Assembly: GCA_947589455.1 (NCBI GenBank)
Contig: CANQCD010000010.1
Location: forward strand, 1 to 32,681
DNA length: 32,681 bases
Source of the DNA: an uncultured Lachnospiraceae bacterium
Lineage (GTDB): Bacteria; Bacillota; Clostridia; Lachnospirales; Lachnospiraceae
Direction: 5' to 3'
The number at the start of each line of letters is the position of its first letter. Positions within the stretch are counted from its first letter, which is position 1. The notes below the pieces were generated by a model. That model made no database searches and was not told where the DNA came from. It worked only from the letters and a program-made list of their open reading frames with translations. Below are positions 17,936-21,164 of this stretch, one piece after another. A program made the translations under genes and the position numbers.

Positions 17936-18433
17936 TCACAGCTGTTCATATGTAATTTTCAAACGGCTTAAATACTGTTTTACCGCCTCATCCCACTCCT
18001 GTAAGCCTATTCTTTCTATTGTAAATGTCATTTGTGAACATCCTGTGACCACTGACAGCTTCCCATTTTCAAACCGGATGTTCAGGATGCAGCCTAACTG
18101 TCCGCTTTGAACCATGGCAAGCAGTGTTTTCTCCTGTAAGAGCTGTGCGGCAGAGCAATCTGATAATTTCAGGGAGACCATAAGGGAACTGGGAGTTTTC
18201 TTTCCCCTGATATATTGGTAAATGTACGGCTTTGCCTCCTTCCAGTACAATAATTCCGGAATCGCCTGCTCTTGTTCCTCCGTATCATACCAGGATATGC
18301 TGCGTTTTCCCGAAAGGTTCATCCTGGCGCAGGTCACCACTCTGGCCTCTTCCAGGAAAAAACTGTCAAACGCCTCTTCGATTAAAAGTTTCGCCATAAA
18401 ATCTTTAATATCAAAAATATTTAATAAAATCAT
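17936..18433 (-). CDS. DUF5721-like hypothetical protein
   Basis: Start MILLNIFDIKDFMAKLLIEEAFDSFFLEEARVVTCARMNLSGKRS; the longer ORF start upstream is unsupported. Confidence 0.65.
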   Translation of the reverse strand: MILLNIFDIKDFMAKLLIEEAFDSFFLEEARVVTCARMNLSGKRSISWYDTEEQEQAIPELLYWKEAKPYIYQYIRGKKTPSSLMVSLKLSDCSAAQLLQEKTLLAMVQSGQLGCILNIRFENGKLSVVTGCSQMTFTIERIGLQEWDEAVKQYLSRLKITYEQL

Positions 18434-18614
18434 AAAATCCTTCTTTCTGTATATACTATCCATTACGGCCGGGCGTCTATAGCGAGAAGGCATCCTCATC
18501 CATCCGCTGTAGAAAGCACGCCCTGTCTTCAAAATACAAAGGCAGTGCAAACTACATTGCCGCCAGCTGGCAATCTGGTCAACCGTGCCATTCGGCACAG
18601 AGAAGGAGGTCACC

Positions 18615-18815
18615 ATGAAAAAGGATGCGAAAACATTCAAGGAAGTAGCAGAACGCTGCACCCGCTTCGCTTTGAGCGATGAGTGCCACTGTGACGCCAA
18701 AAATTCTACTTCCACGCAGGAATCCGTTTCTTGCAAAAACTGTAAGCATTACACCCCAGACAAAGTCTGCACGTTAGACTTGTATGAAGAAATTTTAGAA
18801 AACCATCATCTGTAA
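18615..18815 (+). CDS. Small Cys-rich hypothetical protein
   Basis: SD agaaggaggtcacc before ATG; MKKDAKTFKEVAERCTRFALSDECHCDAKNSTSTQESVSCKNCKHYTPDKVCTLDLYEEILENHHL. Confidence 0.7.
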   Translation: MKKDAKTFKEVAERCTRFALSDECHCDAKNSTSTQESVSCKNCKHYTPDKVCTLDLYEEILENHHL

Positions 18816-19018: not shown

Positions 19019-20977
19019 CTATTCCTCAACAAAAACTACAACAGAACGCGGCGGAACAACCGTCTTTCTCTGATACTGCGTCTGCCCCTCCGCTTTCCTG
19101 CGCTTCCTGCCAGTTTTCTTCTTGCGCGGAGCCAGCAGGCTCTCATCAAAGCGGTTGTCATAGCTGTCAATGATAACTTTCCATTTTCCATGGTTCGGCA
19201 GATTAGGCAGATCGAACGCCCTCGCCTCCCAGAACATATTATAGATCACATAGACAGAACGGTTATCCTCCCCCTCTGCATATGCGCCATAATATAACAT
19301 TGCAAGCATCCGGCTGTAATTGGAAAAATCAGCCCTCCACGCCTGTATCCCATGGATTGACAGATCCGGCATACCGCAGGAGAGATAGTCTACCATGCGA
19401 AGCGGTTTGTTCTGGTGGAGTACGGAAAAGCTTTTCCTGAAACGAATCAGCTTCTGCACAAACTCAAAAATCTCTTTTGACATCTTCGTCTCATTCCACT
19501 GCAGCCACGTTGTCTGGTTGTCCTGACAGTACGCGTTATTATTTCCATACTGCGTATTTCCAAATTCGTCCCCCGCCAGGATCATCGGTGCAGACTGACT
19601 GGTCAAAAGCATGATAAACGCATTCCGGATCTGTACCATCCTGCGATCAAGCACCATCTTTTTCCGGGTCTTTCCCTCTACCCCGCAATTCCAGCTATAG
19701 TTGTATTCCGTCCCATCCCGGTTTGACTCTCCGTTCTCTTCATTGTGCTTGATATCATAAGATACCAGATCCAAAAGAGTAAAGCCGTTGACATGCGTTA
19801 TAAAATTTACGATGGAATGATCCCACGCATTTTTTGCAAAGGATTCCGCCGCGCGCTCCACCATTCCCTCGTCGCTCTTTAAAAAACGTCTTGCATTGAC
19901 TAAAAAACTCTCGTTATATTCCGCCAGGGTATCTTTCTGTTCCCTGATCCCGGCATCATGGAGCATCCTCATATCCCAGTAGCTTCCCAGAATCTTTACG
20001 CCGGACAAAATCGGATCGGAAGCCAGCGACAGCGAAGGCATAACCTCCTGATTGACACGGAACCCATCAATATGGTACTTAAGAACCCAGTCGCGCAGGC
20101 AATCCATCATCAAGATCAGATTCGTCCCCGGCAAAAAATAAATATCCATCAGCACCTCAATGCCATTTGCATGAAACGCCCTGACCATCTCTTTAAATTC
20201 TGTAGAAGGGCAGGCGCCTTTGCTCGCATAGGACGCCTTTGGCGCAAAATAAAACGGCATGTCCGCGCCATATCCCCAATAATTAAGGCGAACCTTCTGT
20301 TCCTGCTCTGCAGAATCTCCTGTATCTTTTCTCCCCGCCTCGAACACACCCGGAATCTCCCCCGAAACCACTTCGTCAAATTCATATGCCGGAAGCAGCA
20401 TAACCCCATTAATGCCCAGCTCCTTCATGTAAGGGATTTTTTCAACGAGCCCCCGATAAGTCCCTTTATACCGGACTTTTGAAGAGCTGTGCCTGGTGTA
20501 TCCCCTGACGTGAAGCTGATATAAGATCAAATCAGAATACGGAATCCGTGGCGGCGCGTCGTCTCCCCAGGAAAAATTCTGAATGCAGATACCGCAGCGC
20601 AGTTCAGAAAGCGGCTGCGGCCTCTTCCCCCATTGATCCCGCCCAGTGACATAGCCGGCATATGGATCAGGCATATTGGCGCCGTCTACTTCATATAAAT
20701 ATTCATAGTCATCGGAAAGAATATCTTCAATCTTTCTGGAATCTCGGCATTCACTGGATTTATATATGGCAACAAAATATACGCTGCCTTTTTTATATTT
20801 ATCAGTCAATGCAATGCGAAATTCCGGTTCTGCCTGTCCTTTCCGATATAATTTCAGAAAGCAGTCCTTGCTGTCCGGAAGATACACTGCAAACTGTACG
20901 CCGTCCGATACCTTTGTCACCCCAAAAGACATGGTGTCTCCTACTCTGTATTCCAATAACTGTTTTCCCTGTCTCAT
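19019..20977 (-). CDS. GlgX/pullulanase-like GH13 protein, probably catalytically inactive
   Basis: Start MRQGKQLLEYRVGDTMSFG (SD aaggaagag); GH13_11-like blocks LILYQLHVRGYTRH, DGFRVNQ, DPILSGVKILGSYWD, VNFITHVNGFTLLDLVSYDIKHNEENGESNRDG, MILAGDEFGNTQYGNNNAYCQDN. Confidence 0.88.
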   Translation of the reverse strand: MRQGKQLLEYRVGDTMSFGVTKVSDGVQFAVYLPDSKDCFLKLYRKGQAEPEFRIALTDKYKKGSVYFVAIYKSSECRDSRKIEDILSDDYEYLYEVDGANMPDPYAGYVTGRDQWGKRPQPLSELRCGICIQNFSWGDDAPPRIPYSDLILYQLHVRGYTRHSSSKVRYKGTYRGLVEKIPYMKELGINGVMLLPAYEFDEVVSGEIPGVFEAGRKDTGDSAEQEQKVRLNYWGYGADMPFYFAPKASYASKGACPSTEFKEMVRAFHANGIEVLMDIYFLPGTNLILMMDCLRDWVLKYHIDGFRVNQEVMPSLSLASDPILSGVKILGSYWDMRMLHDAGIREQKDTLAEYNESFLVNARRFLKSDEGMVERAAESFAKNAWDHSIVNFITHVNGFTLLDLVSYDIKHNEENGESNRDGTEYNYSWNCGVEGKTRKKMVLDRRMVQIRNAFIMLLTSQSAPMILAGDEFGNTQYGNNNAYCQDNQTTWLQWNETKMSKEIFEFVQKLIRFRKSFSVLHQNKPLRMVDYLSCGMPDLSIHGIQAWRADFSNYSRMLAMLYYGAYAEGEDNRSVYVIYNMFWEARAFDLPNLPNHGKWKVIIDSYDNRFDESLLAPRKKKTGRKRRKAEGQTQYQRKTVVPPRSVVVFVEE

Positions 20978-21164
20978 GCTCTTCCTTATTCCTCCAATAT
21001 GATATCCTAGTGTCTCTGCCAGAAACCGCAGCCTCTCTCCCCTGCGGCTGCAGCCGGTTGCCGCGGCATAGCCGCGCCATGCCTGGCACACGTCATGTCT
21101 TGATTATTGAAAATAAGAATTTCCTCTATTTTACTACATCCTTGCTAAAAGGTCAAAATATTTC

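Follow-up and report, generated by a model that had tools for sequence, protein, structure and literature searches.

Introduction

The plant isoamylase ISA2 (PDB 9j6x, 9lfn and 9xvi) has the isoamylase fold, has lost its catalytic residues and is kept by selection. It is non-catalytic and increases ISA1 activity (PMC12892837); non-catalytic effects on polyglucan structure are described for it as well, and the reason for keeping a dead isoamylase is considered an open question in plants (PMC12510319). Four missense mutations that destroy the catalytic activity of maize ISA1 lie in a "border lobe", of which W578 touches glucan in the secondary site SBS2; ISA2 lacks the SBS2 sequence and keeps SBS1, and the CBM48 of the isoamylase subfamily is reported to be without a working glucan site (PMC12510319). 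The bacterial GlgX/isoamylase enzymes (GH13_11; TIGR02100; E. coli 2wsk, S. venezuelae 7u39, TreX 2vnc) have the order CBM48, barrel and C domain; the S. venezuelae GlgX is regulated by c-di-GMP and has an ExR(X)6R motif (PMC9530166).

Here, we describe a gene that combines traits of both systems, found in a stretch of 32,681 nucleotides from an uncultured Lachnospiraceae bacterium (the window, meaning the whole of the DNA analysed). Like ISA2, its product has an isoamylase fold and has lost the catalytic residues under continued selection; with bacterial GlgX it shares the domain order, the fold and many invariant residues.

Results and Discussion

Gene and predicted fold

The gene (19019..20977, minus strand) comprises 652 codons plus stop, from an ATG at 20977 to a stop codon at 19019-19021; it was identified by profile and structure matches, its start region is conserved among homologues and the plus strand of the same interval is full of stops. 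A possible Shine-Dalgarno sequence, GGAGG, is read 13 bases upstream of the ATG (20991..20995, minus strand) and AAGGAAG stands directly before it (20981-20987, minus strand), which makes the Shine-Dalgarno sequence noted in the preliminary description plausible; the intact frame of about 650 codons noted there is confirmed.

The homology to isoamylase/GlgX is beyond chance as judged from profile and alignment scores. The TIGR02100 GlgX profile matches at 3e-95 with 319.7 bits, half of the equivalog cut-off of 640.9 bits, and the matches to sequences of known structure rank plant ISA1 (4e-79) before Sulfolobus TreX (2e-63), E. coli GlgX (4e-61) and ISA2 (6e-33). The AlphaFold2 model, built on an alignment of 63 sequences (pLDDT 88.1, pTM 0.90), predicts an isoamylase fold with confidence; its best Foldseek match is rice ISA1 (1.9e-55, TM 0.79), with TreX and GlgX next, while ISA2 chains appear only from rank 42 on. 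Because the protein is closer to ISA1 than to ISA2 in both sequence and fold, an origin separate from that of plant ISA2 is most likely.

The expected order of CBM48, (beta/alpha)8 barrel and C domain is present. The CBM48-like N-terminal domain (residues 18-106; 20660..20926, minus strand) matches Pfam PF02922 marginally over the cut-off (E 9e-5), and the C-terminal beta domain (approximately residues 540-652; 19022..19360, minus strand) is suggested by AlphaFold strands and by weak matches to PF21156 and PF02806, both below their cut-offs. In contrast to the GH13_11 isoamylase/GlgX enzymes, the protein has neither the D/E/D triad nor domain B, it lacks the N and H of region I, and it stays under the TIGR02100 cut-off. 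The best explanation of these data is that the product is a cytoplasmic, catalytically dead GH13_11-like isoamylase, hereafter the pseudo-isoamylase.

Loss of the catalytic motifs and conservation of the gene

The four conserved regions persist as remnants, all on the minus strand. Region I reads MDIYFLPGTN (residues 277-286; 20120..20149), which has neither the N nor the H of DVVxNH and is followed by the deletion of domain B (~45 residues); region II reads GFRVNQE (residues 305-311; 20045..20065), with N309 in place of the nucleophile Asp; region III reads ILGSYWD (residues 329-335; 19973..19993), with S332 in place of the acid/base Glu; and region IV reads HVNGFTL (residues 395-401; 19775..19795), with V396-N397 in place of His-Asp, N397 being the third acid position. 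The replacements first read from the sequence (D to N, E to S, HD to VN, together with the missing domain B) are thus all correct.

These losses extend to the whole family. The full D/E/D triad is found in 0/147 pseudoenzyme sequences (none of the three residues in 113, one in 33 and two in 1), and the D/E/D triad is complete in every sampled active isoamylase of Lachnospiraceae. Asn occupies the nucleophile position in 101 of the 147 pseudoenzymes, the others having V, T, M, I and more, and the third acid position is Asn in 124, with both catalytic aspartate positions being Asn in 92. Between the region I aspartate and the nucleophile position, 30-31 residues are counted in the 147 pseudoenzymes against 75 in most active isoamylases of the family (a single value of 31 in the active set belongs to L083, the pseudoenzyme with two triad residues), and this fixed spacing indicates that domain B was excised to a fixed length. 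A short class of pseudo-isoamylases, 570-615 residues long and present in some genera (L182-L188), has lost region III too. On an unrooted tree of 86 sequences, one branch (SH-aLRT 100) parts 67 pseudoenzymes from 19 active enzymes, and the simplest reading would be that the catalytic loss happened once. Two highly divergent members of the pseudoenzyme group, L225 (G086) and L226 (G126), were placed on long branches.

The pseudo-isoamylase was detected in 28/28 congeneric genomes, counting that of the window, at 52-74% identity in full-frame alignments; the catalytic set is lost alike in all of them, and no intact copy of the window orthologue was found among the sister strains. A scan of species genomes yielded 80 further loci, mostly from Lachnospiraceae (Anaerocolumna, Lachnotalea, Lacrimispora, Konateibacter, Lactonifactor), none with a full catalytic set. 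With one genome per genus, about 124 of 150 Lachnospiraceae genera carry the gene, a few of these calls being possibly wrong as presence was scored from match span and frame length. Among 196 genomes scanned across the order, no family other than Lachnospiraceae gave a full-length match to the pseudoenzyme, and the matches in these other families are interrupted at domain B, like those of active enzymes. A literature search of open-access papers found no account of such a family.

The missing catalytic motifs would also be expected of a pseudogene in decay that is intact in appearance only. However, the frame is open in nearly all species, residues are invariant family-wide in a gene carried by most genera, and dN/dS between congener pairs is 0.05-0.19 (approximate values, dS being >0.6 in all pairs). 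The pseudo-isoamylase is under purifying selection, and this conservation together with the dN/dS refutes decay, to which we assign a negligible probability. Since the losses recur in all 147 homologues, neither a sequencing error nor recent decay can explain them. The initial view of a pseudoenzyme, as opposed to simple decay, is therefore upheld, and the sequence makes a non-catalytic role almost certain. The plant beta-amylases BAM4 and BAM9 belong to GH14, a different glycoside hydrolase family from isoamylase. They are plastidial, unlike the pseudo-isoamylase, and they are likewise inactive starch enzymes kept as regulators (PMC8774843; for BAM4, see also PMC12892837).

A retained lobe as candidate glucan site

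Conservation in the barrel is uneven. The lobe at residues 398-495 (19493..19786, minus strand) has kept 36/55 of the residues that are invariant in active enzymes, compared with 32/139 in the rest of the barrel (Fisher 5e-8, for a count that excludes deleted columns and in which adjacent residues are not independent). When the maize numbering was transferred to the rice ISA1 sequence, a single offset yielded R504, N561, W578 and N628 of the border lobe/SBS2. Their equivalents in the alignment are R363 (19889..19891, minus strand) and, within the retained lobe, N412, W429 (in SWNCG) and N479 (in GNNN), kept respectively in 142, 147, 146 and 147 of the 147 pseudoenzymes (97-100%).

Because of which residues were kept, glucan binding is the most economical account, and the window protein most likely binds branched alpha-glucan via this lobe; the retention could also reflect structure and not sugar binding, and the report that CBM48 has no working glucan site in this subfamily (PMC12510319) counts against this account. 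The glycogen-binding part of the preliminary description is thus in line with the retained border lobe/SBS2 residues of ISA1 (PMC12510319), which lend it weak support. Unlike plant ISA2, the bacterial protein has lost domain B and has kept the SBS2/border-lobe residues, so that the pseudoenzymes of bacteria and plants seem, from their alignments, to have kept different glucan sites.

Glycogen genes and possible partners

The window's genome encodes GlgA, two GlgB proteins, of which one is intact and the other altered, MalQ, and GlgP as one full copy plus pieces of another at contig ends. Neither a GlgX-type isoamylase nor a type I pullulanase over the cut-off was detected in this genome, which is 87.7% complete. 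Within the genus, type I pullulanase over the cut-off is absent from 21/28 genomes and an active isoamylase is seen in 2/28, none being detected in the window's genome and in 25 of the 27 others. Across the family, GlgA is over the cut-off in 149/150 genera and GlgB in 146/150, whereas an active GlgX-type isoamylase is found in about 44/150, and about 82 of the 124 genera bearing the pseudoenzyme are without a GlgX-type enzyme.

A lineage that needs debranching and of which many members are GlgX-less could have kept an enzyme that is still active, its catalytic residues having moved or been exchanged for others. The gene content of the window's genome is in agreement with this hypothesis, as are N232, K247, E370, E417, Q449, Q461 and D530, which are conserved mainly in the pseudoenzymes. 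Nevertheless, the alignment places no intact triad elsewhere and shows no family-wide conserved acid new to the barrel, E417 and E370 occurring in some active enzymes; the incompleteness of the genome and the presence of another GH13 protein (C69, 715 aa) that could cut alpha-1,6 bonds weaken the metabolic argument as well. Relocated catalytic residues were rejected on the basis of this alignment, and residual activity of the protein is very improbable.

The precedent of ISA2, non-catalytic and able to increase ISA1 activity (PMC12892837), suggests in turn a heteromer with an active isoamylase, which the pseudoenzyme would stabilise or target as in plants. The pseudoenzyme is indeed more frequent in genera having an active GlgX-type isoamylase (42/44) than in those without (82/106; Fisher 0.008, uncorrected for shared ancestry). 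In contrast to plant ISA2, it is mostly found in genomes without active isoamylase, and the SBS2 residues lost in ISA2 are kept. The GlgX-less genera and the retained SBS2 imply that ISA2-like pairing can hold in a subset at most, and we consider it unlikely. As a general rule, the bacterial partner of an active isoamylase that had been envisaged fails on the same genomes, and the strict ISA1-ISA2 analogy is ruled out by the absence of active isoamylase from most carriers. Bacteria without active isoamylase isolate the non-catalytic role of a dead isoamylase.

Two observations point to GlgB. The 4/4 genomes without GlgB over the cut-off are also without the pseudoenzyme (hypergeometric 7e-4, ignoring shared ancestry), and the pseudoenzyme lies at most 15 kb from glgB in 9/98 genomes (about 2 expected, P 1.6e-4) against 0/100 for glgA; both tests ignore phylogeny and their P values are optimistic. 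Given this co-loss and loose linkage, GlgB is the likeliest functional partner of the pseudoenzyme. In four genera without pseudo-isoamylase (G029, G109, G142 and G164), GlgB occurs as two long copies of 735-820 aa.

The pseudo-isoamylase loci do not form operons with genes of glycogen metabolism. Within ~9 kb, the neighbours are DUF5721 (25/81 loci), DUF5662 (19), TraX (12) and, in many loci, ABC proteins; in the window, the DUF5721 gene (17936-18736, minus strand), a recurrent neighbour in many loci, lies directly downstream. That the conserved neighbours are non-glycogen genes would suit a soluble regulator or glucan sensor that binds maltodextrin in its inactive pocket, D to N at both aspartates, and controls another process; such substitutions can preserve hydrogen bonding yet abolish catalysis, and the pair of Asn occurs in the majority of pseudoenzymes. 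On the other hand, the N and H of region I and domain B are lost, and the pocket residues vary family-wide, as seen at the nucleophile position; this speaks against retention of subsite -1. We regard a sensor of this kind as possible but rather improbable.

Proposed role and consequences for annotation

The reading that we favor, and that we hold to be about evenly poised between right and wrong, is a non-catalytic glycogen protein that is bound to glucan by its lobe and modulates glycogen enzymes, with GlgB as the likeliest partner. Both domain B and the D/E/D triad would have disappeared a single time from an ancestral isoamylase, close to the base of Lachnospiraceae, leaving a cleft that can no longer cleave alpha-1,6 linkages. 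In plant ISA1, the lobe that follows barrel strand 7 provides a secondary glucan site beside the active cleft; in the pseudoenzyme, this lobe would have been kept almost unchanged and may anchor the protein on branched alpha-glucan. Thus anchored, the pseudoenzyme could act as a scaffold or an allosteric subunit that modulates the enzymes building or trimming glycogen, GlgB in the first place, or as a protector of branch points. More tentatively, and with the doubts outweighing the arguments in favor, we propose that the dead isoamylase is a core and family-defining factor of glycogen metabolism in Lachnospiraceae, which binds branched glucan by its ISA1-type border lobe and shapes branching together with GlgB without requiring an active isoamylase. 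If true, this bacterial system would be convergent with plant ISA2 but built on another glucan site.

The pseudo-isoamylase occurs in most genera of a dominant family of gut bacteria and probably bears the annotation of a glycogen debranching enzyme; pathway reconstructions that take it for GlgX would be in error. In a review of glycogen metabolism in the gut, glgX homologues were counted by annotation, with two in Blautia obeum (PMC10395257), and some annotation-based counts of this kind may include pseudoenzymes.

The second GlgB paralogue of the window's own genome lies outside the window (L190, G000:C3:26512-28806). It is about 765 aa long with an intact frame, and its catalytic motifs are lost: VDGLRVDAVA has become IDGLRIPELDA, IAEES has become LAGEA and SHDEVVHGK has become PHDGLSGGK. 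The second GlgB is altered as well in the relatives L206, L208 and L216 and is split in two frames in G017. As a general pseudoenzyme the long second GlgB, located near the pseudo-isoamylase gene, was rejected, being intact in most genera examined, with residues lost in part of the genus. The altered sequences group together (SH-aLRT 98), and most of the genus and of the family keep the intact version.
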